In this document: positions 21,677 through 50,396 of the stretch, in pieces
Layout of the letters: the number at the start of each line of letters is the position of its first letter
How positions within the stretch are numbered: the first letter of the stretch is position 1
From: a virus
DNA length: 63,907 bases
Direction: 5' to 3' (one strand)
IMG/VR virus record: IMGVR_UViG_3300021598_000858
Location: 1 to 63,907 of that record
Notes under the pieces: model-generated
Seen by the model: only the letters and a program-made list of their open reading frames with translations
Database searches by the model: none
Told to the model about the DNA's origin: nothing
Translations under genes and position numbers: made by a program

Positions 21677-21937
21677 TCGCACAGATGGGCTACTGCCTGA
21701 AATTTCTAGAGCTCATTAAAAATTTTTTGGACCCCCTCGGCTACTGCCTGCCCCAAGCCTATGTGGGGTATGGGTGAGACCTGGTGGCTTCCTAAGTTAT
21801 CCACAGGTTTAACCCTGGGGGGTGTGGATATGTGGATAAAAATGTTATCAAACTGAGACCAACTACGCTTGCGCTTGATAGGGCTATCACATATGTTTAG
21901 ACCGTGAGCAACAGGGCTCACAGTTAGGGGAATATAA
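21677..21937. other. Divergent intergenic region with clustered DnaA boxes, possible origin
   Basis: Leftward and rightward genes diverge here. Three DnaA-type boxes occur within 43 bp: inverted TTATCCACA at 21797-21805, TGTGGATAT at 21823-21831 (one mismatch) and TGTGGATAA at 21831-21839, followed by TGTTAT at 21843. Two copies of GGCTACTGCCTG lie nearby (21687 and 21739), and AT-rich runs flank them. Rightward promoter-like elements (TTGCGC, 17 nt, TATGTT) and a leader hairpin GTGAGC/GCTCAC (21904-21921) precede the first rightward gene. An origin, a control region or both are plausible. Confidence 0.5.
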
Positions 21938-22664: not shown

Positions 22665-22676
22665 TGTTTGTGTTGG
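22665..22676 (+). repeat. Half-element of the palindrome family (left arm only)
   Basis: TGTTTGTGTTGG occurs without its partner arm, about 40 nt before the DnaA-box module at 22716. It is the first member of the intergenic palindrome series and appears truncated. Confidence 0.5.
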
Positions 22677-22715
22677 CCCGCCCACCCCGTTCTATTGGGA
22701 GTTAGTTAGAGAGCC

Positions 22716-22753
22716 TGTGGATAACTAGGCGCAAATCGTTATCATTTTGTAAT
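22716..22753 (+). promoter_or_regulatory. DnaA-box module, copy 2
   Basis: TGTGGATAA, 12 nt, CGTTAT, 5 nt, TGTAAT, the same spacing as the other copies. Here GATAAC and GTTATC also form an inverted repeat. It precedes the 22840 gene, with a leader hairpin ATAAGCGC/GCGCTTAT at 22798-22818 between. Confidence 0.7.
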
Positions 22754-22839
22754 CGTGTGCGCTTGGTGTTGTCGGTGTTGTAGTGTAGTTTTATCTCATA
22801 AGCGCAAGGGGCGCTTATAAGTTAGGAAAGAAGGTTGTT

Positions 22840-22980
22840 ATGTCAAAGTGTGGAGTTTGCGATACCTCAGAGAATATCGTGTTCTCAGGTGTTGATGCTT
22901 TCATTCTAGAATGTATGGAGCAGATTGAGCGCATTTGCTACGATTGCGCCAACGAGCAGAGGGCAAAGGTGTCCGCATGA
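22840..22980 (+). CDS. Cys-knuckle microprotein, 46 residues
   Basis: Starts MSKCGVCDTSENIVFSGVDA and contains ICYDCANEQ, giving two C-x2-C knuckles typical of a small treble-clef fold. GGAAAGAAGG lies before the ATG and ATGA joins it to the next gene. Confidence 0.62.
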   Translation: MSKCGVCDTSENIVFSGVDAFILECMEQIERICYDCANEQRAKVSA

Positions 22981-23204
22981 TGTTTTACAATGGTTTCAAT
23001 CTAATGATTGACCTAATCCTTGCGGGCGTTGTTGGTTTCTTCGCTTATCGCTCAGGTTGGTTTCGTGGATATAGTGAAGGACAAGCGGACGCGGTCTGTG
23101 ATGATTGCGAGCGCATGGCTAAACTTGAGGCTGAGTATGCCTATGACTCATGGATTGAGTCACGCATTGAGGAAGACTTGGAGGCAAAGCATGGCATCAA
23201 CTAG
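22977..23204 (+). CDS. Small membrane protein, 75 residues
   Basis: A hydrophobic segment LMIDLILAGVVGFFAYRSGW near the N-terminus, then a cytoplasmic charged helix with CDDCERMAKLEAE. The start overlaps the previous stop by 4 nt. An upstream in-frame ATG at 22935 lies inside the previous gene. Function unknown. Confidence 0.62.
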   Translation: MMFYNGFNLMIDLILAGVVGFFAYRSGWFRGYSEGQADAVCDDCERMAKLEAEYAYDSWIESRIEEDLEAKHGIN

Positions 23205-23373
23205 ATGGCACCGCGCAACCTACAAGGCGCACGCTGAGGTTATCAAGCAACTAATGAACCCAGCAAATGAGGAAGTATTAAAGAAGGTTGCCTATGAGTT
23301 GGCGATTATCTACGGCGCGGATAACGCTAACTTTCAAAGGGATAAGTTTCTCACCGCTTGCGGTGTGAAGTAA
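23191..23373 (+). CDS. Small helical protein, 60 residues
   Basis: Starts MASTRWHRATYKAHAEVIKQ after GGAGGCAAAGC and overlaps the membrane-protein gene by 14 nt. All-helical and soluble, with no recognised family. Confidence 0.6.
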   Translation: MASTRWHRATYKAHAEVIKQLMNPANEEVLKKVAYELAIIYGADNANFQRDKFLTACGVK

Positions 23374-23390
23374 CAACCCCCTAACCAACC

Positions 23391-23424
23391 AGCCCCCGCA
23401 GATTGCGGGGGCTGAGTTGTTTGT
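23391..23424 (+). terminator. Terminator whose tail doubles as palindrome arm
   Basis: AGCCCCCGCA and TGCGGGGGCT stem, followed by GAGTTGTTTGTGTT. The U-rich tail is also the left arm of the following palindrome, an arrangement repeated in later intergenic regions. Confidence 0.72.
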
Positions 23425-23508
23425 GTTGGGCTGCTTATGGCTCTGGGCTGGACTAGCAACTTGCGTTATAGCTAGTCCTAGTGCCCAATAAGCAGCCCAA
23501 CACAAACA
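23418..23508. repeat. Intergenic palindrome B (21-bp perfect arms)
   Basis: TGTTTGTGTTGGGCTGCTTAT (23418-23438) is the exact reverse complement of 23488-23508. Inner arms TGGGC/GCCCA and GGACTAGC/GCTAGTCC continue the hairpin. The outer arm sequence is shared with palindromes at 24647, 25287 and 26035, while the inner parts differ but stay complementary. Confidence 0.88.
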
Positions 23509-23516
23509 TGCGGGCC

Positions 23517-23554
23517 TGTGGATAACTGTAGAGAAAACGTTATGAAAATGTTAT
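23517..23554 (+). promoter_or_regulatory. DnaA-box module, copy 3
   Basis: TGTGGATAA, 12 nt, CGTTAT, 5 nt, TGTTAT, 8 nt downstream of palindrome B and about 30 nt before the DUF932 gene. Confidence 0.75.
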
Positions 23555-23584
23555 GCAGAGAATGAGATAGTACTAGCGCTCCCT

Positions 23585-24601
23585 ATGATAGGCTGGCCAT
23601 TGATAGGCACCCGCCTATCCTTATGCGAAAGGGGAGAATCCCTACGTGGCGCTCCTGCATGGCATGGGTTAGCAAATGCAACTTTTGACGTGGACGCGGA
23701 TATTACTACCGCTGACATGCTCAAGGGCGCATTGCTTAATGACTGGAATGTACGTCTTGAGCCAGTCATCTATCCTGCAGACTATCGCGCAAAATCCGCG
23801 CTCAACTATGTTGTGCGTACTAATCCCGTCGACGCTGGCATTGACGTGCTCTCCGTCGTAGGTGACCGCTATTCCGTATTCCAAAATGAGGACCTCTTCA
23901 ATTTTGGTGACAATATTTTGGACGGTGGCGCCAAATGGGAATCCGCGGGCTCAATCAAGGACGGCCGAATTGTATTCGGTAGCCTAGTTGTACCTCGCGA
24001 ATTCATTCTAGACCCGCAAGGCGTCGCTGATAAGACTGTCACTTATTTATTGGTGCACTCTTCACATGACGGTAGCGCCAGTGTTCAGGCGTCAATTACA
24101 CCTGTGCGCGTCGTATGCCAAAACACGCTGAACATGGCGTTAAAGTCCACTAAGCAATCTTTTAAAGTCCGTCACACTTTAAAAGTTGAGGGACGCGTCG
24201 CTGAGGCCCGCCGTGTGCTAGGCCTAACATTCAATCACATGGACGAATTCGAAACCATGGCGAAAGCCCTATTCGAAACGTCAATTGACAATGTCCAATG
24301 GGGTAAGTTGCTCACCGCTATATATCCGCTGGACGATAACGCGCCAAAAGGCACCGTCACTAAGCATGCGCAAAAAATCGATATCTTGAATGATTTATAT
24401 TTCAAGGCGCCTACTCAAGACGGAATCCGTGGCACCGCATGGGGCGCACTTAATGCGCTTACTGAGCGTCTGGACTATTTCCGTCCATCTCGCACCGCCA
24501 ATGGCGAGGCAATCAAGGCAGCAGCCAGTGGATTTGATGCCATGGTAAATGCCGAAAAGGCCCGCATTCTATCCGCGGTCCGCGAATTCGCTAACGCGTA
24601 A
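23585..24601 (+). CDS. DUF932 (phage/plasmid-like protein TIGR03299)
   Basis: About 338 residues. GAPAWHGLANATF near the N-terminus, GDRYSVFQNEDLFNFGDNIL (about residues 93-112) and the VVCQNTLNMAL core (about 179-189) fit the DUF932 family, abundant in phages and plasmids of actinobacteria and of unknown function. The start is uncertain. ATG 23585 has no ribosome site, whereas a strong AAAGGGGAG (23628-23636) and a hairpin GATAGGC/GCCTATC (23602-23619) lie downstream, as in the leaders of sister cassettes, but no usable in-frame start follows them. It is a monocistronic unit with terminator 24617-24643. Confidence 0.8.
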   Translation: MIGWPLIGTRLSLCERGESLRGAPAWHGLANATFDVDADITTADMLKGALLNDWNVRLEPVIYPADYRAKSALNYVVRTNPVDAGIDVLSVVGDRYSVFQNEDLFNFGDNILDGGAKWESAGSIKDGRIVFGSLVVPREFILDPQGVADKTVTYLLVHSSHDGSASVQASITPVRVVCQNTLNMALKSTKQSFKVRHTLKVEGRVAEARRVLGLTFNHMDEFETMAKALFETSIDNVQWGKLLTAIYPLDDNAPKGTVTKHAQKIDILNDLYFKAPTQDGIRGTAWGALNALTERLDYFRPSRTANGEAIKAAASGFDAMVNAEKARILSAVREFANA

Positions 24602-24616
24602 CACGCGAAAGCCCCC

Positions 24617-24651
24617 GAGCCCCTGGCCCTAGGCCAGGGGCTCTCTTGTTT
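24617..24651 (+). terminator. Terminator after DUF932 gene
   Basis: A perfect 12-bp stem GAGCCCCTGGCC/GGCCAGGGGCTC with a 3-nt loop, followed by TCTTGTTTGTGTT, again shared with the palindrome arm. Confidence 0.82.
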
Positions 24652-24727
24652 GTGTTGGGGCTATATATGAGCTTATGGGCAGGGTAGTTGTCTTTTCCTG
24701 CCCATATATATAGCCCCAACACAAACA
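24647..24727. repeat. Intergenic palindrome C
   Basis: TGTTTGTGTTGGGGCTATAT at 24647 pairs with 24703-24727, with one 2-nt TA insertion on the right. An alternative inner stem ATGGGCAGG/CCTGCCCAT (24675-24705) continues it. The outer arms match palindromes B, D and E. Confidence 0.86.
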
Positions 24728-24732
24728 TTGCC

Positions 24733-24770
24733 TGTGGATAAGTGAGAAGAAATCGTTATAGAGATGTTAT
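24733..24770 (+). promoter_or_regulatory. DnaA-box module, copy 4
   Basis: TGTGGATAA, 12 nt, CGTTAT, 5 nt, TGTTAT. A small leader hairpin TATCGG/CCGATA (24814-24830) and GAAAGGGG follow before the ATG at 24849. Confidence 0.75.
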
Positions 24771-24848
24771 CTAATAGGCTTGCGTTAGACAAGGAGTGAT
24801 GATTAGATAGTCCTATCGGAGATACCGATACAAGAGAAAGGGGCTTTT

Positions 24849-25244
24849 ATGGCTACCACCATAAAGGTAGATAGAGTAGTGCTAGTAGAGGCACTAAAGA
24901 AAAAGTTGGCAGAGCAGGATAAACTGCGTGCTGAGTATAAGAAAGCAGAAGAAAAATACAAGAAAGAACAAGAAGCCTTCGCTACTAAGGTTATTGCTCT
25001 TGCTAAGTCGGGGAAGTTAGAAATCGCCAGCACCAACTATCGCAGTTGGTCAGGAAGGTTGGAAATCGAGTTCAATGTTGATAAGACTCAAATCCCTGCC
25101 GAACCAAAGAACCCACAGACACCAGACGGGTGGCTTCACGATAGTGATTACCAAGAACTTGATAGGACTATCAAGTTGCTCGGTATGACCAGCGACCCAA
25201 GCGTTCCTACGAGCGTCTATAAGTCAGTAGCACAATGGCTCTAA
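24849..25244 (+). CDS. Hypothetical coiled-coil protein, 131 residues
   Basis: The N-terminal half is a long charged helix (LVEALKKKLAEQDKLRAEYK) likely to form a coiled coil. The C-terminal half is beta-like (SWSGRLEIEFNVDKTQIPAE). No known family. It is the only gene of its cassette, between copy 4 of the DnaA module and terminator 25262-25286. Confidence 0.68.
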   Translation: MATTIKVDRVVLVEALKKKLAEQDKLRAEYKKAEEKYKKEQEAFATKVIALAKSGKLEIASTNYRSWSGRLEIEFNVDKTQIPAEPKNPQTPDGWLHDSDYQELDRTIKLLGMTSDPSVPTSVYKSVAQWL

Positions 25245-25261
25245 AATAAGCCTAGCAAATG

Positions 25262-25291
25262 CCCCCGTGCCAAGCACGGGGGTTTTTGTTT
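25262..25291 (+). terminator. Terminator
   Basis: CCCCCGTGC/GCACGGGGG stem with a 3-nt loop, followed by TTTTTGTTTGTG. Confidence 0.85.
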
Positions 25292-25370
25292 GTGTTGGGC
25301 TGTCTGGCTGGCTATTTACTAGTCTTTCTACTAATGTTTTAGTAGAAAGCCAGACAGCCCAACACAAACA
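25287..25370. repeat. Intergenic palindrome D (23-bp perfect arms)
   Basis: 25287-25309 (starting TGTTTGTGTTGGGCTGTCTG) is the exact complement of 25348-25370. An inner hairpin CTTTCTACTA/TAGTAGAAAG occupies 25324-25349. Confidence 0.9.
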
Positions 25371-25379
25371 TCGGCAGCC

Positions 25380-25417
25380 TGTGGATAACTTCCCTGGAAT
25401 TGTTATCAAATCTTTAT
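25380..25417 (+). promoter_or_regulatory. DnaA-box module, copy 5
   Basis: TGTGGATAA, 12 nt, TGTTAT, 5 nt, CTTTAT. A leader hairpin GTAAGAG/CTCTTAC (25463-25481) and AGAGGGGG follow before ATG 25502. Confidence 0.72.
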
Positions 25418-25501
25418 CAACGAGAGTAGAGATTACCGCGTTCTTAATATAGATTAGCCCATGTAAGAGAAAGCCTCTTACAGAAAGAGGGGGACTACCC
25501 G

Positions 25502-25984
25502 ATGATTACAACGCCTGACGGTGTGAACATCTACACCGACCAAGACGTCCAAGAGAAGGTCGCAGAGGCTAAGACTACTGCAACCGACTCAGCAAACAGA
25601 TATACCAACCTACGTATCGCTGGTGTTGTTGAGACAACATTCAAGTCAGAGGTGCGCGAAGGTAACATGGAGGAAGACTATGCGGTCGGACTCTACAATA
25701 ACCTTGCTTCACAACTAGATTGGAGCACCATTGACAACCTCAGCGTTAAATACACAGCAACCGTCTATGCGTTCGACGACGAACTATTCACAATCAACGA
25801 CATTGAGGCAGACGACGAGCAAAGTGCTGAACAGTCCATTTGGGACGACCTTAATATCTCAAACGTTCGTCTTTCATTCGACGTCGAGGCAAATGGGGAA
25901 GGCGGTTACTTTAAAGGTGACGTCTATGACCTTGACGACTTCATCAACGATAACATCAAGATAGAGGTTACCGAACAGGATTAG
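25502..25984 (+). CDS. Hypothetical acidic protein, 160 residues
   Basis: A strongly acidic soluble protein (VYAFDDELFTINDIEADDEQ) with alternating beta segments and no recognised domain. The acidity could mimic nucleic acid, which would fit an anti-host role, but this is speculation. Single-gene cassette. Confidence 0.68.
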   Translation: MITTPDGVNIYTDQDVQEKVAEAKTTATDSANRYTNLRIAGVVETTFKSEVREGNMEEDYAVGLYNNLASQLDWSTIDNLSVKYTATVYAFDDELFTINDIEADDEQSAEQSIWDDLNISNVRLSFDVEANGEGGYFKGDVYDLDDFINDNIKIEVTEQD

Positions 25985-26001
25985 TCCCCCGACTAATACG
26001 A

Positions 26002-26039
26002 TAGGCTTGGCGTTCATGGGCGCCAAGCCTATTTTGTTT
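26002..26039 (+). terminator. Terminator
   Basis: TAGGCTTGGCG/CGCCAAGCCTA stem with an 8-nt loop, followed by TTTTGTTTG. Confidence 0.82.
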
Positions 26040-26119
26040 GTGTTGGGCTTGCTTGGCTATTAGTAGCTTTTATTGCTGGCAGGCCTGCCTGCCAGCAGCC
26101 AAGCAAGCCCAACACAAAC
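26035..26119. repeat. Intergenic palindrome E (23-bp perfect arms)
   Basis: 26036-26058 pairs perfectly with 26097-26119. An inner hairpin GCTGGCAGG/CCTGCCAGC lies at 26075-26096. The outer sequence matches B, C and D. Confidence 0.9.
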
Positions 26120-26133
26120 CTTATCGTGTGTCC

Positions 26134-26171
26134 TGTGGATAACTTCCTTCATATCGTTATATAAATGTTAT
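26134..26171 (+). promoter_or_regulatory. DnaA-box module, copy 6
   Basis: TGTGGATAA, 12 nt, CGTTAT, 5 nt, TGTTAT. A leader hairpin AGAGTG/CACTCT (26205-26220) and AAAGGGGAGAAT precede ATG 26238. Confidence 0.75.
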
Positions 26172-26237
26172 AGAGAATCCTTGCTACCGCGACCGCGCCG
26201 TAGTAGAGTGAGAGCACTCTCAAAGAAAGGGGAGAAT

Positions 26238-26744
26238 ATGTCTATGACGACAGAGGAGAGGAAATACCGCTTCTCAGAGATAATGACGGCTATTCATCTT
26301 ATCGCAGATGAACCCGAGGATATATCAGAGTTCCGACTTCCTAATGGAACGAAAGGACTATCAGACGGCAGACTAAAGAGTGCGATTATGTGCCAAGTAT
26401 TCAAAGAGGACGAGGAGTTCTCCGCGAGGCTTGTCAATGCGCTCGCTTCTACCGCTATGGAACGAGCAAATGAAGGCAATAAGCCTACGCGTGATGATAT
26501 GTCAGCGTTGTCTATTGCTATCCACACCTGTTGGGGTGTTGGCGCTTTTACACCACTACTAGCCTTACTAGGTGTTACTGGTAAGGTTGCCGAGGCTTTT
26601 GATGTCGAAGTTCCCGAGGAAATAAGCCTAGTGTTCCGTCCAAATGCTTTTGCCAAGAAGTTCGGCGAGTTCAATCCTCTCGATATGTGTGATGAGGATA
26701 AAGACGACGAAACCTACAATGCGATACTAGGTGGTGATAAGTAA
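26238..26744 (+). CDS. Hypothetical protein, 168 residues
   Basis: Starts at 26238 behind an excellent ribosome site. A longer reading from 26073 would run through palindrome E and the promoter module and is rejected. The protein is helical and acidic (RYRFSEIMTAIHLIADEPED-like start, CDEDKDDETYN end) and unrecognised. The stop overlaps the next start by one base. Confidence 0.66.
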   Translation: MSMTTEERKYRFSEIMTAIHLIADEPEDISEFRLPNGTKGLSDGRLKSAIMCQVFKEDEEFSARLVNALASTAMERANEGNKPTRDDMSALSIAIHTCWGVGAFTPLLALLGVTGKVAEAFDVEVPEEISLVFRPNAFAKKFGEFNPLDMCDEDKDDETYNAILGGDK

Positions 26745-27265
26745 TGGGTATGGACGTAATGGGTAATAACCCTATCAGCGAGCGCGGTGAGTACTTCCGC
26801 AACAATGTGTGGTGGTGGCGACCTCTATGGGATTACTGTTGTTATGTAGATAGTAGTCTTGGCGAGCGCGTACCTTATGGGCACTCTAACGACGGCGACG
26901 GTCTAAAGACGGCAGAGGAGTGCCAAGCACTAGCAAGGTTATTGTTAGAGAAACTTGAAAACGGCGAGGCGCTCGCTTATATCAAGGAACGAGATAAGGC
27001 TATCGCCGAGTTAGAGTGGGATACCTGCCGTCTATGTGAAGGTAGTGGTATCCGTACCGATAAGGTTGGCGTTGAAGGCGGTATGCCCGATAAAGAATTA
27101 CCTGAGGACATAGCACTCTTAGTAGGTAGGACGAAGGGTACTTGTAATGGTTGCCGAGGGTTCGGAAAAACCGAGCCTTGGGAGAGCCATTATCCGTTGA
27201 ACGAGGAGAACATTAGAGAGTTTGCAGGCTTCCTGCAAGACTGTGGTGGATTCTCTATCTGCTAA
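26744..27265 (+). CDS. Conserved phage protein with DnaJ-type zinc motif
   Basis: A 173-residue protein. The N-terminus MGMDVMGNNPISERGEYFRN, then NVWWWRPLWDYC, belongs to a conserved family found in many phages and some bacteria. The second half has C-x2-C-x-G-x-G pairs (CRLCEGSGI and CNGCRGFGK), as in the DnaJ zinc centre. Function unknown, possibly a zinc-dependent scaffolding or redox role. Confidence 0.75.
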   Translation: MGMDVMGNNPISERGEYFRNNVWWWRPLWDYCCYVDSSLGERVPYGHSNDGDGLKTAEECQALARLLLEKLENGEALAYIKERDKAIAELEWDTCRLCEGSGIRTDKVGVEGGMPDKELPEDIALLVGRTKGTCNGCRGFGKTEPWESHYPLNEENIREFAGFLQDCGGFSIC

Positions 27266-27280
27266 GTTCCCCTTTCTCTA

Positions 27281-27322
27281 GTAAGCCTATCGCTGATACC
27301 CTTGGCGATAGGCTTACTTTTT
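27281..27322 (+). terminator. Terminator
   Basis: A 13-bp stem GTAAGCCTATCGC/GCGATAGGCTTAC followed by TTTTTG. Confidence 0.88.
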
Positions 27323-27722
27323 GTCACTCTCCGCCGCCGAGTGCTACTTGCGAGTAACTTCGGCGCGGAAATGTTTGTGTTGACCCACCCATCTTATATT
27401 AGATTACCCACCCTATTTGAAGGCCCTTGCGGGCCTACTCCGCATATTGGCCATAGGCTTTAGCCTATGGCCAACACAAACCCTGTGGCGCATATCACAA
27501 GAGAGCAACGGCGTGTCGGCTTGACTAGCCGAGAGAGTTAGGCTACTGCCACGACGAGAGATAGGCTTATTAGGCTTATTAGGCGTAAGGCCAGACCTAC
27601 GGCTAGGGTCGAGAGAGCCGTATATGATAAGAGAGCGTAGGCCTATCCCACCCTTCCTTCCCTCTCTCTCTATATAACAAGAGATAACCCTATTACCGCG
27701 CCGTCGGGGGCATAGAAGGGGT
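27323..27722. other. 400-nt structured non-coding region with degenerate palindrome F
   Basis: No convincing gene. The left arm TGTTTGTGTTG (27372-27382) and right arm CCAACACAAAC (27471-27481) flank inner hairpins GGCCCTTGCGGGCC (27422-27435) and TTGGCCATAGGCT/AGCCTATGGCCAA (27447-27474). Here, unlike B-E, the arms do not extend into one long stem. Downstream are a duplicated TAGGCTTAT unit and several purine-rich GAGAGA tracts. It may hold a non-coding RNA or long leader for the MoxR gene. Confidence 0.5.
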
Positions 27723-31227: not shown

Positions 31228-31263
31228 GCGCGGTGGGCTACCCCTTCCCCCCACCGCGCTTAT
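31228..31263 (+). terminator. Terminator
   Basis: A GCGCGGTGGG/CCCACCGCGC stem with a 12-nt loop, followed by TTATC. Confidence 0.7.
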
Positions 31264-31273
31264 CAACACAAAC
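31264..31273 (+). repeat. Half-element of palindrome family (right arm only)
   Basis: CAACACAAAC appears directly after the terminator with no left arm nearby. It mirrors the half-element at 22665, so the series runs between 22.7 and 31.3 kb. Confidence 0.45.
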
Positions 31274-31307
31274 CCGCAAACGGAAGAAATCACAGAAGCA
31301 GGAAGTT

Positions 31308-36533: not shown

Positions 36534-38000
36534 TTACTCTTCGATGGCACCCTTGATTATTTGAGTGGTTTGCTCCTCATTTAACCCGCCATTTGGCAAC
36601 TCTCTAAGTGCTTGAGCCTTGTCTCCGAAGATAGAACTTAGCACACCAGCGCTGCCTTGTCGCTCTACCGTCATGCGAATAAACTCACGAGAATCGTCCA
36701 ATTCTTTTGTTGTTTTGATTAATTTAAACAGGCGGTCTATCTCCTGAGAAACGTTAGGGTCAGCATATCCACCATTCATTTCTTCAGCAAAACGCATAAA
36801 AGCAACTCTTTGGCCCTGCATTTCTATAACAGCATTAATTAAAGCCTTAAGTTGTTCTTTACTCTTTACCTCTACTGGTAACTTAAAAGCACACATAGAT
36901 TGAGGTTTAAAAGCGGGGCAGTTAGCGGCTACAAAACAGGTGTCACATGCCCTAAGTGAAGTGCTATGGGATGAAACTGTGGTGACATCTTTAATGACGC
37001 CATCGGCATCAATTTCACTCTTTGTATCAAATCCAAAGACGGGAAGATTGGCGTATTCGTCAGCATTTCGTGGTTCAAGTTTCCGTGTATGAATACCCTT
37101 ATTATCATATACGGCAGGTGGGGTTTCCCCACTTTGCTCCACTTCTCTCCCCTCACTATTATCATATAACAGCGGGTCATCTGGGCTATTGGTCATCTTG
37201 TTCATCCTTATCTCGAACTGCTCATAAGACCACACCGCTAACTTACAGACTTCCTGCGGGTCATCCTCGATTATCTTATCAATGTCCAAGCCAGCCTTTT
37301 CGTAGATTGCCTTGTACCTTGGGCGTGCTTGTTCCTTCATCTTCTTTGGATAACGAACTAGTCTAGTGCCATCCCAAATGATTGTTTCACCGTGCATCAT
37401 CGGTGAAAGCCACGATAAGGTGCTGGCACTTTCAAATATAATAGAACGCAGGTTGTCAGGTTTGGCACACCCTAATGCATGCCACCTGGTCCCTTCCCGC
37501 TTGCTGTGTAGGCGGGTAGCGCTGGCAAGTCTGCTATCTATCTCAATAGCGTCTCCTGGGATAGCGATGTCCAAATAGTAGTCAACTAGCCTTTGAAGCC
37601 CATTTAAATCGGTCTGTGGTTGCCATACAGGAATGAACTTACCTGGTGGTAGCTCGGACCATACCTTCTGTCTGTGGCTCTCTACCCAAGCTGGGTCAAT
37701 GGTGGGGCTGTTAATCTCAAATACGGTATTGAGCCTATCTATATTAACGGCTACGAAATGTTCGTACCCTGCGGCAAACTCTTCGAGCTCATCAGCTGAC
37801 AGCTTCAGGGTTTTAGGTAAGCCTGGGTGTACATAAATATAGAAATCTTTATTAAAGTAATTTTCTAATAGATACTCTTTGGTCTTAGGTAGACCGCGGC
37901 TCACCAGGCGATGGTAGCTGACGCCAACGTGGTTGGCGGTTGTCTCTTCAAGAATTACTCTATTTGAAGGTACCTCAGCGCCTAAATAGACAATTTTCAC
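36534..38000 (-). CDS. Large protein with possible TGT/DpdA-like TIM barrel
   Basis: A 488-residue protein with GTG start overlapping the preceding TGA. The first 250 residues (DFYIYVHPGLPKTLKLSADE, then FIPVWQPQTD, GDAIEIDSRLA, GTRWHALGCAKPD, TLSWLSPMMHGE) have the strand/loop rhythm of a TIM barrel like tRNA-guanine transglycosylases, including DpdA enzymes that insert 7-deazaguanines into DNA. The C-terminal half has a Cys cluster (CDTCFVAANCPAFKPQSMC) and a long helical region. No preQ0 synthesis genes (queC/D/E, folE) are in the window, so the assignment is tentative. Confidence 0.5.
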   Translation of the reverse strand: MKIVYLGAEVPSNRVILEETTANHVGVSYHRLVSRGLPKTKEYLLENYFNKDFYIYVHPGLPKTLKLSADELEEFAAGYEHFVAVNIDRLNTVFEINSPTIDPAWVESHRQKVWSELPPGKFIPVWQPQTDLNGLQRLVDYYLDIAIPGDAIEIDSRLASATRLHSKREGTRWHALGCAKPDNLRSIIFESASTLSWLSPMMHGETIIWDGTRLVRYPKKMKEQARPRYKAIYEKAGLDIDKIIEDDPQEVCKLAVWSYEQFEIRMNKMTNSPDDPLLYDNSEGREVEQSGETPPAVYDNKGIHTRKLEPRNADEYANLPVFGFDTKSEIDADGVIKDVTTVSSHSTSLRACDTCFVAANCPAFKPQSMCAFKLPVEVKSKEQLKALINAVIEMQGQRVAFMRFAEEMNGGYADPNVSQEIDRLFKLIKTTKELDDSREFIRMTVERQGSAGVLSSIFGDKAQALRELPNGGLNEEQTTQIIKGAIEE

Positions 38001-46814: not shown

Positions 46815-47372
46815 TTATCTTTCCCTAAAGTCCGCGCCTTGTAACTTATCATACACTTCTTTTTCGTAAGCCAATCCATGCATTCCCGCCACCAAGCGGG
46901 CTAACGCGTATGAATCTGCGGCGTTATCGTCAGTAAATTCTACTCCCCACTTCTTATAGATGTAAAGGAGCATCTGGGCCTTTTGTACGCCTGTGCCCTT
47001 GCCTGTCACATACTTCTTTAAGCTTGTAGGGGGGACTAACATCGGATAGTACCCAGCATCCTTGCATACAAGCTTGACCATCCCACCCAGCTCACCTAGG
47101 TGAAACACCTTGCCCATACCCGCGTAAGCGTAATCTTCCATAGCAATATCATCTATGGGAAATGGGGAAGAATCTATTTGTTCTTTTAAAAATGCGCGAA
47201 TCTCTGCAAGCCTGTCAATGCCTCTGAGTTCCGATTTAAAGACAGTTGTCTGATATGTCCCATTTGTTGAAAACAACGTGCAAGCAAAACCGCTGTAAGA
47301 CTGGTCAATACCCATGTACAAACGGCTACTGCCTGGAACGGACAACTTACCTTCAAATTTTTTTATGGTCAT
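46815..47372 (-). CDS. RuvC-like Holliday junction resolvase
   Basis: A 185-residue RNase H-fold nuclease: YMGIDQSYSGFACTLF (first Asp), DDIAMEDYAYAGMG (catalytic Glu), and DDNAADSYALARL (terminal Asp pair). The layout matches RuvC, which cleaves four-way junctions before packaging. Its stop is adjacent to the Ntn-hydrolase start, within a recombination-gene cluster (RecA, Cas4-like, Hjc-like). Confidence 0.85.
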   Translation of the reverse strand: MTIKKFEGKLSVPGSSRLYMGIDQSYSGFACTLFSTNGTYQTTVFKSELRGIDRLAEIRAFLKEQIDSSPFPIDDIAMEDYAYAGMGKVFHLGELGGMVKLVCKDAGYYPMLVPPTSLKKYVTGKGTGVQKAQMLLYIYKKWGVEFTDDNAADSYALARLVAGMHGLAYEKEVYDKLQGADFRER

Positions 47373-47863
47373 GGGATAAATCTATTTCCAAATCCAGACC
47401 GACTGTTAGACGTACGTCTTGTTAACTCCCTGCTAGTAAGCGAGTAGTACCGCTCTAAATTTTCTAACGCTGTCTCTAACAGCTTACGATATGCGTGGGC
47501 ATAGTTCTTGGCCTTTTCTAAAACTAATACGTGGTCATCTGTTGACACTGATGCCTTTAACATGACTGCTTTCTCTGTGGTTTTACCAGTAGTTTTAGTA
47601 AGCAACCCTCTGGCTACTTCTATCTCATAATCGTTAGTAGCCTCAAGCTCAGCTAAGGATGCACAAGCTACTTGAGTTCTAAGGAAGTTTAGATTCTCCA
47701 TGTATTTGGCAGCCATAATCATCAAGTCTTGGTCATCAACAAGGGTGATATCTTCTGGAAATGCTGGCGGGTCAATGTTCATGTTTCTTTTTATTGGCAG
47801 TCCTTGTGCCTCTAGTTGTTGAAGAACCAACTCACTGATGCCCGTTGCTACTAGTTCACTCAT
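47369..47863 (-). CDS. Helical protein in recombination cluster, 164 residues
   Basis: Mostly coiled-coil helices (DDQDLMIMAAKYMENLNFLR and LLETALENLERYYSL), an Arg/Ser tail and no enzymatic motif. It overlaps both the resolvase and the Cas4-like nuclease genes by a few nt, so it is a candidate accessory factor of recombination. Confidence 0.62.
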   Translation of the reverse strand: MSELVATGISELVLQQLEAQGLPIKRNMNIDPPAFPEDITLVDDQDLMIMAAKYMENLNFLRTQVACASLAELEATNDYEIEVARGLLTKTTGKTTEKAVMLKASVSTDDHVLVLEKAKNYAHAYRKLLETALENLERYYSLTSRELTRRTSNSRSGFGNRFIP

Positions 47864-48707
47864 TGTAACCTCCGCACTTTGTACATCCGCCCCATTTATC
47901 TAAGTTACATGGGGGAGGGGTGTTGTTATTGATAGCTTCGACAATCATAGCTGCTGCCTCAAACAAAGGGGCAATAGCAAAATCTGTTTTAGGTACAACA
48001 AACTCTTTTACATCCTGTGTTGCTTTGTTCTCATATATAAGAACAGCTTCTCTTGGATAATTTTCATACTCTAATAACTCTGCAAGCTTCATATATATTT
48101 GAACTTGAGTTACGTGCTTAGCAAAAGGGGCTTTAATCTCTGGCCAAACCTTTTCCATAGTCCCAAACTCTGCGGCTAACTCTGGGTTTTCCCACCGTAT
48201 AGTTCCAAAGCCAATTGACTTTACTTCTAACATGAGTGGGTCACCAAAGTTTGTAAGCCAACCATCAGCGTGACCAAAGATGCGAAGTGGTTCATAGAAC
48301 AGCGGGACCTCTTTGTATTCTAATGGTCCCTCATGGCAATCGGAACCGCCCCAGAAATACTCATCACACTCTTTGCAGTACCACTTGCCATATAAGTTTC
48401 CCATTTCTTGAAACCAACGTTGCCACTTAGCATGGATGCCGTGACCTTCTGCAAATACTGATTGAAGTCGCAAGCTATTACGACGTGAACTTTCTAGTGG
48501 TTGGTGCCCTTTTAATTGAAAATAGGATGCTCTGTGGCACCACTCATCGCCTGCCATCTCTGATGGATGTAGGACATCTGTGCGTCTACTTTTGTCTGTT
48601 GGCTTAGATAAAACGTAACGTTCTACTGAACCTAAGACGCGGGAAGGTTTTTTGCCTGCATCTAAAAATGATTTCAATGCCCCCGTTGGCTTGTACTTTT
48701 CTGTCAT
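47856..48707 (-). CDS. Cas4/RecB-like PD-(D/E)xK exonuclease
   Basis: A 283-residue protein. HPSEMAGDEWCHRASYF gives the N-terminal Cys, FGHADGWL and MLEVKSIGF the catalytic D ... E-x-K core, and QVQIYMKLAE the Q-x3-Y motif. CNLDKWGGCTKCGG near the C-terminus provides further Cys for an iron-sulphur cluster, as in Cas4/AddB-type nucleases. A zinc-like insert CKECDEYFWGGSDC precedes the core. It would resect DNA ends for RecA-mediated recombination. Confidence 0.84.
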   Translation of the reverse strand: MTEKYKPTGALKSFLDAGKKPSRVLGSVERYVLSKPTDKSRRTDVLHPSEMAGDEWCHRASYFQLKGHQPLESSRRNSLRLQSVFAEGHGIHAKWQRWFQEMGNLYGKWYCKECDEYFWGGSDCHEGPLEYKEVPLFYEPLRIFGHADGWLTNFGDPLMLEVKSIGFGTIRWENPELAAEFGTMEKVWPEIKAPFAKHVTQVQIYMKLAELLEYENYPREAVLIYENKATQDVKEFVVPKTDFAIAPLFEAAAMIVEAINNNTPPPCNLDKWGGCTKCGGYNE

Positions 48708-48719
48708 ACGGATACCGTA

Positions 48720-49037
48720 TCACACGTCTTCAGTAAGTATCCACTCCTCAAGTGACTTGCCCTGTTTTTTAGCTTTACGCTTAAGCGCGTTACGCTCACG
48801 ATGCGACATGCCGCCCCATATGCCGTGCTGTTCTTCCATAGCCTCTGCATAGAGCAAACAATCTTTACGCACGGGACACTCAGGTAACCCGTCTCGTCCA
48901 AAGCATACGCCTTTGGATACGGTTGCAATTTTTTTATACTTAGCTTTATCTCTGGGAGGAAACCAGAGCTCTGTGTCCATCCCCCGACACTTCGCTTGAT
49001 GGCGCCAGCCCTCTAAGTGGCCGATGTCTTCGAACAA
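48720..49037 (-). CDS. WhiB-family transcription factor
   Basis: A 105-residue protein. The four cluster-binding Cys lie in AKCRGMD, GVCFGRD and ECPVRKDCLLYA. GIWGGMSHRERNALKR is the WhiB turn and AT-hook-like basic end. WhiB proteins carry a 4Fe-4S cluster, bind the primary sigma factor and occur only in actinobacteria and their phages, so this is the best host indicator in the window. Phage WhiB proteins can repress host promoters and cause superinfection exclusion. Confidence 0.92.
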   Translation of the reverse strand: MFEDIGHLEGWRHQAKCRGMDTELWFPPRDKAKYKKIATVSKGVCFGRDGLPECPVRKDCLLYAEAMEEQHGIWGGMSHRERNALKRKAKKQGKSLEEWILTEDV

Positions 49038-49354
49038 CTACACTCCTGAAGTTTCTGGCGTAGTTCTAGAAAATCATCCTCCAACAACATTACGTAGTTT
49101 TCATCGTTGAGACTGAAACCAAGTACAGGAGTGCGACTGTCAAGGATAGCTTCCTTAACAATCTTTTCTAGAACCGTGGCCTTGATAGTCACGGTGGCTT
49201 TGCCAGTCCACTTGTGTTCTATTAACAAGTCCTTAGACCGAACATCACCCTTACGACTCCAAAACGCTCCGCTACCTGCGTTTCGTTTGCCATTTATTTT
49301 TTTGGCAAGTCGTTCCTCGTGTCTCTTCGACTCCTTCTGACCCTTACTCTTCAT
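49013..49354 (-). CDS. Hjc-like small PD-(D/E)xK nuclease
   Basis: A 113-residue protein. RNAGSGAFWSRKGDVRSKDL followed by LIEHKWT gives the D ... E-x-K pattern of archaeal Hjc/phage resolvase-like nucleases. It overlaps the RecA stop and the WhiB start. A second junction-processing enzyme next to RuvC-like is unusual, so it may act on other structures. Confidence 0.74.
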   Translation of the reverse strand: MKSKGQKESKRHEERLAKKINGKRNAGSGAFWSRKGDVRSKDLLIEHKWTGKATVTIKATVLEKIVKEAILDSRTPVLGFSLNDENYVMLLEDDFLELRQKLQECSCSKTSAT

Positions 49355-50396
49355 CCTCGGCTACCAGTTTGGAGCCTTGTTTGATAGAAGCAAGAACGTC
49401 ACTTTCGAGTGTCTCCTTTAAATCAACTTCTTCCCGTATAGAATCAAGCATAGCATCGGAGCCTTGCCACTGTCTATCCGCGTAACGGTAGTAGGCACCT
49501 GCTCTAGTTATCACTTTATTGACAATTCCAATAGCTAAGATTTCCTTAGCAAAATCGATGTCTCCAGCCAATAAACCGTTGCCTTTTGCAAAATAAAAGT
49601 CAAAAGTAGCCACCTGGGATGGTGGGGCTGACTTGTTTTTTAATACTCGTACCTTAATGCCCTGACCTACACGGCGCTTATCTTGGCCAGTCCCTACCTC
49701 AATCCACTCATCTCTGCGAACCTCGCAGCGGGTGAAGAAAGCGTAGTCCTTACCTAGCCCACCTGGGGTGGTGCGTGGGTCACCGTACATAACGCCAATT
49801 TTGGAGCGCCACTGGTTAATAACAATTCCTATGAATGGACGTTCTGGTTCCACCAAAGAACGTTTAGATGCTTTGCCCACTTTACGGAAGAACTTGTTAG
49901 TAAGAAGTGCTCCACGACCTACAGTAGATTCCTCCATCTCCTTATCGTCTTCTGTTGTAGGGACCAAGGCAGGTAAAGAATCAATAACAATACAATCGAC
50001 CGCTTTACTTTCTGTAATCTGGATGACAGACTCATATGCTTCCTCCATAACATTTGTTGAAACTACATATACTCTGCTGGAATCTACTCCGCACATCTCT
50101 GCATAGCTAGGAACCCACTGCTCTGCTGCTACCCAAACAGTAGTAAAGTCGGGGTTTTTCTTTTGATTAGCCGCAATAGTCTTTAGTGCTATTGCTGTTT
50201 TTCCGTTGCTTGCTTCTCCAATAATTTCGTGCCATTGATTAACAGGCCAACCACCGCCTAAGGCAACATCTAAACTTACTGAACCACTTGTGTAACGCTG
50301 TGAGACATCAGTTCTAATCTCAGAACCAAGAATGATTGTGTCATCGCCATATTTTTTATTTATCTTTTGTAATACTTTTACTAATTCTGCATTCAT
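49344..50396 (-). CDS. recA: RecA recombinase
   Basis: A 350-residue protein: SGSVSLDVALGGGWPVNQWH, Walker A GEASNGKT (a variant of GPESSGKT), CIVIDSLPALVP (Walker B), FIGIVINQWRSKIGVMYG and GGLGKDYAFF, and a family-typical C-terminus. It forms filaments on ssDNA for strand exchange. It is co-directional with the resolvases and the polymerase. Confidence 0.9.
   Translation of the reverse strand: MNAELVKVLQKINKKYGDDTIILGSEIRTDVSQRYTSGSVSLDVALGGGWPVNQWHEIIGEASNGKTAIALKTIAANQKKNPDFTTVWVAAEQWVPSYAEMCGVDSSRVYVVSTNVMEEAYESVIQITESKAVDCIVIDSLPALVPTTEDDKEMEESTVGRGALLTNKFFRKVGKASKRSLVEPERPFIGIVINQWRSKIGVMYGDPRTTPGGLGKDYAFFTRCEVRRDEWIEVGTGQDKRRVGQGIKVRVLKNKSAPPSQVATFDFYFAKGNGLLAGDIDFAKEILAIGIVNKVITRAGAYYRYADRQWQGSDAMLDSIREEVDLKETLESDVLASIKQGSKLVAEDEE

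Follow-up and report, generated by a model that had tools for sequence, protein, structure and literature searches.

The 63,907-base IMG/VR virus record analysed here as a whole (the window) carries, between small early genes, a family of long interrupted palindromes with constant ends and a largely free interior. Alignments of contigs from uncultured related viruses show gain, loss or swapping of single-gene cassettes, whose joints lie in the arms of these palindromes or next to them. We propose, at slightly under an even chance, that the elements are double-stranded DNA borders of early-gene cassettes, each consisting of an upstream region, a gene and a terminator, which are exchanged, gained or lost between phages by recombination through the borders. 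The cassettes would be independently expressed. An earlier note on this DNA had listed recombination sites among several possible functions, and this option provides the best fit.

Palindromes between the early genes

A search of the whole window for inverted repeats returned four near-perfect interrupted palindromes as its strongest hits, at the very places where the earlier note had put four complete elements. The elements and their partial copies are:

23418-23508, palindromic element 1, flanked by a small gene and the DUF932 gene; perfect arms of 21 bp and an inner hairpin
24647-24727, palindromic element 2, between the DUF932 gene and gene 24849-25244; 22-bp arms and an inner hairpin
25287-25370, palindromic element 3, between genes 24849-25244 and 25502-25984; 23-bp arms and an inner hairpin
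26035-26120, palindromic element 4, between genes 25502-25984 and 26238-26744; 23-bp arms and an inner hairpin
27372-27482, long variant (degenerate) element ahead of the AAA/VWA gene pair; complementarity limited to the outer arms, with interior hairpins and CCCACCC tracts
22665-22676, + strand, arm half-copy, placed relative to a terminator and a DnaA-like box as the complete elements are
31263-31274, - strand, arm half-copy immediately following a hairpin that lies downstream of the VWA gene

The arms of elements 1 to 4 are perfect over 21, 22, 23 and 23 bp respectively, across gaps of 37-49 nt. Folded as single DNA strands, the four elements reach -33 to -39 kcal/mol (z -9 to -12), and no shuffled sequence was equally stable. 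The degenerate copy and the half-copies are likewise present as the note described them; the former folds with z -5.2, but the half-copy at 22665-22676 does not fold (z 0.2). The arm common to all four elements, also claimed beforehand, does exist but corresponds to TGTTTGTGTTGGG, since element 2 reads TGTTTGTGTTGGGGCT. With up to two mismatches, the arm TGTTTGTGTTGG occurs 20 times in the window compared with 6.8 expected (0/100 shuffles), and all exact copies lie within 22.6-27.5 kb. Long elements occupy the place of 27372-27482 in many relatives. These long variants before the AAA gene (in the window and in contigs G005, G012, G013, G020, G022 and G029) contain several hairpins and CCCACCC tracts, the latter complementary in style to the GGGTGGG tracts of other elements. 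Single arms similar to the half-copy at 31263-31274 are found in G004, G008 and G018.

Each unit runs from an intrinsic terminator through the element to the upstream region of the next gene, and the same order is seen in relatives. In all four window elements the T-tail of the terminator overlaps the left arm, in agreement with the earlier description of an arm doubling as terminator tail. Because they are placed after a terminator and before the next upstream region, the elements probably lie outside the transcripts of both the preceding and the next gene. The accompanying signals are:

23390-23414, + strand, intrinsic terminator before element 1
24617-24643, + strand, intrinsic terminator before element 2
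25261-25283, + strand, intrinsic terminator before element 3
26000-26033, + strand, intrinsic terminator before element 4
23515-23525, + strand, DnaA-box-like CCTGTGGATAA, 6 nt after element 1
24731-24741, + strand, DnaA-box-like CCTGTGGATAA, after element 2
25378-25388, + strand, DnaA-box-like CCTGTGGATAA, after element 3
26132-26142, + strand, DnaA-box-like CCTGTGGATAA, after element 4
22714-22724, + strand, DnaA-box-like CCTGTGGATAA, after the half-copy at 22665

On the 3' side of the DnaA-like box there are GTTAT motifs, in some cases a TTAGAT-like motif, and then the ribosome site; TTAGAT-like motifs approximately 50 nt ahead of gene starts are enriched. A simple scan for sigma70-like consensus promoters found 8 sites against 12.5 expected by chance and is uninformative here, so we infer a promoter in the unit from its anatomy.

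Among the genes that the elements separate, one codes for a DUF932 protein and the others for small proteins of no known family; downstream of the last element follow an AAA_5 ATPase and then a VWA protein:

23585-24601, + strand, cassette gene F5, DUF932 (script-chosen ATG at 23585; a later start is also possible)
24849-25244, + strand, cassette gene F107, function unknown; replaced by F125 in G015
25502-25984, + strand, cassette gene F72, function unknown; absent from the G005 and G020 arrays
26238-27265, + strand, cassette with genes F45 and F86, function unknown

Gain, loss and exchange of cassettes

A first scan of IMG/VR with the exact pattern found 35 stretches, and a second, allowing two variable arm positions, found 44 stretches on what we counted as 37 phage contigs. 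The dispersed intergenic family with inner hairpins that had been recognised in the window thus extends to 37 contigs, 31 of which supplied the 84 distinct elements analysed in detail. Within these 31 related contigs (approximately 1.8 Mb), 63 of the 65 long interrupted palindromes are family members. One array of a few kb in the early-gene stretch holds nearly all the copies of each phage, and the gene neighbourhood of the array is the same in most phages. Gene families were assigned with a simple open reading frame caller and BLAST, by which single small genes may be missed; the resulting cassette orders are:

window: F5, F107, F72, F45+F86
G015: F5, F125, F72, F45+F86
G013: F125, F5, F72, F45+F185+F86
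G012: F125, F5, F127, F72, F45+F185+F86
G005 and G020: F5, F125+F107, F45+F86
G022: as G005 and G020, plus F72

G012 and G013 differ by the F127 cassette, with sequence agreement running through the left arm of one element and resuming at the right arm of the next. Between G000 and G015, F107 and F125 have been swapped between two conserved elements; in the alignment, one joint lies just after the DnaA-like box and the other, on the right, exactly at the left edge of the palindrome. The F72 cassette of G022, which is missing from G005 and G020, sits between two sibling elements, the first of which is approximately 97% like the G005 element. Cassette order also varies, with F125 preceding F5 in G012, G013 and G029 and following it in G015.

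Several observations weigh against the proposed explanation. Break-points of homology fall in elements only 1.6 times as often as expected by length (107 of 1032 compared with 67.7, from pairs that are not independent), and many lie elsewhere between genes. Some neighbouring cassette genes (F125 and F107; F72 and F45) are not separated by an element. The conservation of orthologous elements, loops included, often exceeds that of the neighbouring genes (for example 0.97 versus 0.54-0.62), which suggests sequence-specific recognition or recent exchange as opposed to mere pairing. Furthermore, any repeated intergenic sequence could serve recombination, and the shuffling may therefore be a side effect.

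Arm pairing and the case for a DNA element

Across the family, the ends are invariant over approximately 8 bp, GTTTGTG(T)/(A)CACAAAC, while the interior is free. Outer pairs 1-7 are constant in 84/84 distinct elements, a constancy partly built in by the search, which required the arms; pair 8 is T-A or C-G (a looser script turned up the C-G variants, and the second scan confirmed them), and pair 9 is nearly always paired. The invariant part can be set at about 8 bp because the same ends recur in the further contigs L148-L156, around as many as three interior hairpins.

The earlier claim of paired arms with unrelated sequence holds for about two thirds of the family: in 53 of the 84 elements (class 1) the stem continues perfectly beyond the arm, with 29 different octamers. 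In the remaining 31 (class 2), the interior is unpaired across the element and forms separate hairpins, with only ~11 bp of paired arm kept and pairs 12-19 matching at chance level (58/248). Loss of arm complementarity among relatives, which the note had named as grounds for refutation, is therefore seen in part of the family. As the 53 fully paired elements were defined by pairs 1-15, the fair test lies in the deeper pairs only, and for pairs 16-19 it gives 210/212 Watson-Crick compared with a shuffled mean of 85.

A mismatch census of pairs 16-21, taking one element per distinct octamer, counted 159 Watson-Crick pairs, 4 G-T, 0 A-C and 11 other mismatches. Four G-T pairs are about the number that random stem-end mismatches would give, and there is no wobble excess. 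Even the conserved part shows changes in the two arms together (GTTTGTGCTGG with CCAGCACAAAC; GTTTGTGTCGG with CCGACACAAAC), and in G000 and G014 one A-T to T-A pair is the sole difference between the elements that lie between F5 and F107. The note's argument for selection on pairing is thereby supported in part: pairing is maintained, but both sides change at once, and G-T intermediates do not outnumber other mismatches. A folded RNA under selection is not required, because the same pattern can arise when one arm is copied onto the other through a hairpin template; the concerted change could be explained by selection or by such copying, and the data do not tell the two apart. Watson-Crick pairing without wobble excess, the joint change of both arms and the place between terminator and upstream region favour an element acting as DNA rather than RNA. 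In an Rfam search only tRNAs reached the thresholds and the element had no match; together with the lack of a G-T excess in the census, this led us to reject an RNA structure family. An extra terminator was rejected because neither strand has a U-run after the palindrome. The simultaneous change of two arms offers a clean natural case for hairpin-templated palindrome evolution, and cautions against taking covariation alone as proof of an RNA.

In the G003 and G022 arrays, elements of one genome share inner hairpins and differ in their outer stems, which suggests copying or conversion within a genome.

The motif that follows the element varies by phage (DnaA-like, CTGAGAG or CRP-like), while the element itself stays. 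DnaA-box-like TGTGGATAA follows 51 of the 84 elements at a median distance of approximately 10 nt, and is replaced in other phages (L148, L152 and L156 among them) by the CRP/GlxR-like TGTGATCTACATCACA. Sites like those of host global regulators, either DnaA-box-like or CRP/GlxR-like, hence recur at the same place after the elements. ParS-like TTTCACGTGAAA adjoins elements in G003, G010 and G022.

Proposed recombination, rival explanations and known systems

The window encodes a set of general recombination proteins, conserved among the contigs of at least 75 kb:

49344-50396, - strand, RecA/UvsX-like recombinase; 10/10 contigs
49013-49354, - strand, Holliday-junction resolvase (phrog_2002), small; 10/10 contigs
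46815-47372, - strand, RuvC-like Holliday-junction resolvase (phrog_159); 9/10 contigs
47856-48707, - strand, exonuclease (phrog_2506, Cas4-like); exonuclease in 10/10 contigs

A tyrosine recombinase/integrase (PF00589) was found in 0/24 contigs compared with 14/14 controls, with the reservation that some contigs are perhaps incomplete and that the host may supply the enzyme. Y1 transposase and serine recombinase were not found in 12 contigs; DDE transposases were not searched for. Since none of these three enzymes was found and RecA, exonuclease and resolvases are encoded, we propose exchange by general phage recombination. Enzymes of the latter kinds act on junctions and recombination intermediates, which makes the folded palindrome a plausible substrate for them. 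Replication or negative supercoiling would fold the palindrome into a hairpin or cruciform, on which the phage's own exonuclease, RecA and Holliday-junction resolvases might act, possibly by cutting, before the shared arms allow it to be joined to another copy. Synthesis templated by the hairpin would keep the arms complementary while their sequence drifts. Promotion of exchange would then be a selected function and not a by-product of repeated sequence. An improbable variant is a dedicated, integron-like exchange of phage cassettes, in which an unrecognised enzyme, or the resolvase and RecA set, reads the folded single-strand palindrome via its invariant ends, leaving the interior free in sequence and constrained in shape.

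Phage gain and loss of single early genes is mostly described afterwards as mosaicism. Borders marked by one recognisable element make cassette joints readable directly from metagenomes, and testable. Should the palindromes turn out to drive exchange, phages would have in them a counterpart of integron cassette sites that uses general recombination enzymes.

Promoter early stem-loop (PeSL) cassettes, reportedly found in T4-type phages (Arbiol 2010, Comeau 2014, cited in PMC4503421), appear to be the closest known kind, to which the present phages would add a palindrome family that we did not find in the open-access literature searched. Both systems have repeated intergenic units between small early genes, through which relatives shuffle genes; a PeSL unit combines a terminator with a strong sigma70-like promoter, the latter only predicted here. 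Here an intergenic stem-loop terminator precedes each of the four elements and gene shuffling is modular with joints in the units, though with the modest overall break-point enrichment given above. Unlike in PeSL, terminator and upstream region are set apart here by an additional long palindrome whose ends are invariant and whose interior is free but mostly paired, the promoter is predicted from anatomy, and the phages are related to actinophages and not T4. The ESAS of cluster K mycobacteriophages are 17-bp imperfect inverted repeats, mostly with a 4-13 bp spacer, that overlap a SigA-like promoter and are followed by a 13-bp SAS (PMC3203893, PMC11373665). They too are dispersed upstream of several actinophage genes, tied to particular genes and unclear in role; in contrast, the window elements have 21-23-bp perfect arms (~11 bp paired in some relatives) and inner hairpins. 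A search for the SAS GGGATAGGAGCCC gave one SAS-like match at 2 mismatches compared with 0.84 expected, and identity with ESAS/SAS was rejected for want of a SAS excess and in view of the 37-49 nt gap. Integron attC sites share conserved ends, a variable self-complementary interior, an asymmetric bulge and a position at single-gene cassette borders. However, GTTRRRY is not conserved here and is in inverse orientation, the cassettes seem to carry their own upstream region, and attC/integron identity was rejected on the tyrosine recombinase result. N4-type promoters are short hairpins at the start site, used by a giant virion RNA polymerase; the window elements lie ~80-150 nt before the start codon and have stems of at least 21 bp.

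The main rival, unlikely but to be taken seriously, is a DNA site for regulation or insulation, at which a protein of the phage or the host would bind both arms, either as a dimer or on a cruciform, and control the downstream promoter or isolate transcription units, with shuffling as a by-product. Invariant arm ends around a free interior resemble the paired half-sites of a protein, the fixed place before the DnaA-like box in 51 elements and the conservation of orthologous elements above their neighbouring genes point the same way, and the ESAS repeats at cluster K promoters are suspected operators (PMC11373665). Such a site leaves unexplained the inner hairpins and the perfect pairing that extends 8-12 bp past the arms in 29 different sequences, and the adjacent motif changes between phages while the element is constant. 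Replication origins or packaging-related hairpins, which the DnaA-like boxes beside most elements and the parS-like sites near some might indicate, are highly unlikely: several copies occur per genome, each gene border has a single box and no cluster, and CRP-like or CTGAGAG motifs take the same place in other phages.

We give only a slight chance to an RNA element in read-through transcripts, be it an RNase III processing site, a stabiliser or an antitermination signal. RNase III sites do stand between T7 early genes, the hairpins between early genes are very stable here, and antitermination could permit terminator read-through. However, the position after one gene's terminator and before the next upstream region, the lack of a wobble excess in pairs 16-21, of an Rfam match and of a U-run on either strand make the processing and stability options of the earlier note a poor fit. 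Also very improbable is a selfish, non-autonomous MITE-type mobile element with terminal inverted repeats, copied into cassette borders. It would account for the short conserved terminal repeats around a variable interior and for sibling copies within one genome (G003, G022), but target-site duplications were not seen beyond chance (k = 4, 1 observed compared with 1.1 expected; k of at least 5, none), all but 2 of the 65 long palindromes are family members at known element sites, and the enzyme searches above, with their stated scope, found no candidate. It was rejected on the missing duplication and the Y1 transposase and serine recombinase results.

Returning to the phages that would exchange these cassettes, the DNA polymerase, AAA and DUF932 proteins have their closest cultured relatives in phages of Streptomyces, Brevibacterium and Gordonia (roughly 40-50% identity), making an actinobacterial host likely; the family is absent from nine sampled cultured actinophage regions. 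Two contigs of approximately 95 kb have elements near both ends, consistent with circular permutation, and the window is therefore probably two thirds of a genome. A host-borne element was rejected: 84,980 genomes gave a single match, about the chance level (0.45 estimated). This match, L129 303-373, is a solitary palindrome in an Acetobacteraceae metagenome-assembled genome; it has the same 11-bp arms and is probably due to chance. Elsewhere in the window, the divergent intergenic region at 21797-21839, between the leftward and rightward gene blocks, has DnaA-like boxes on both strands, and a queuine tRNA-ribosyltransferase-like gene at 36534-38000 is a sign of possible 7-deazaguanine modification of DNA or tRNA.

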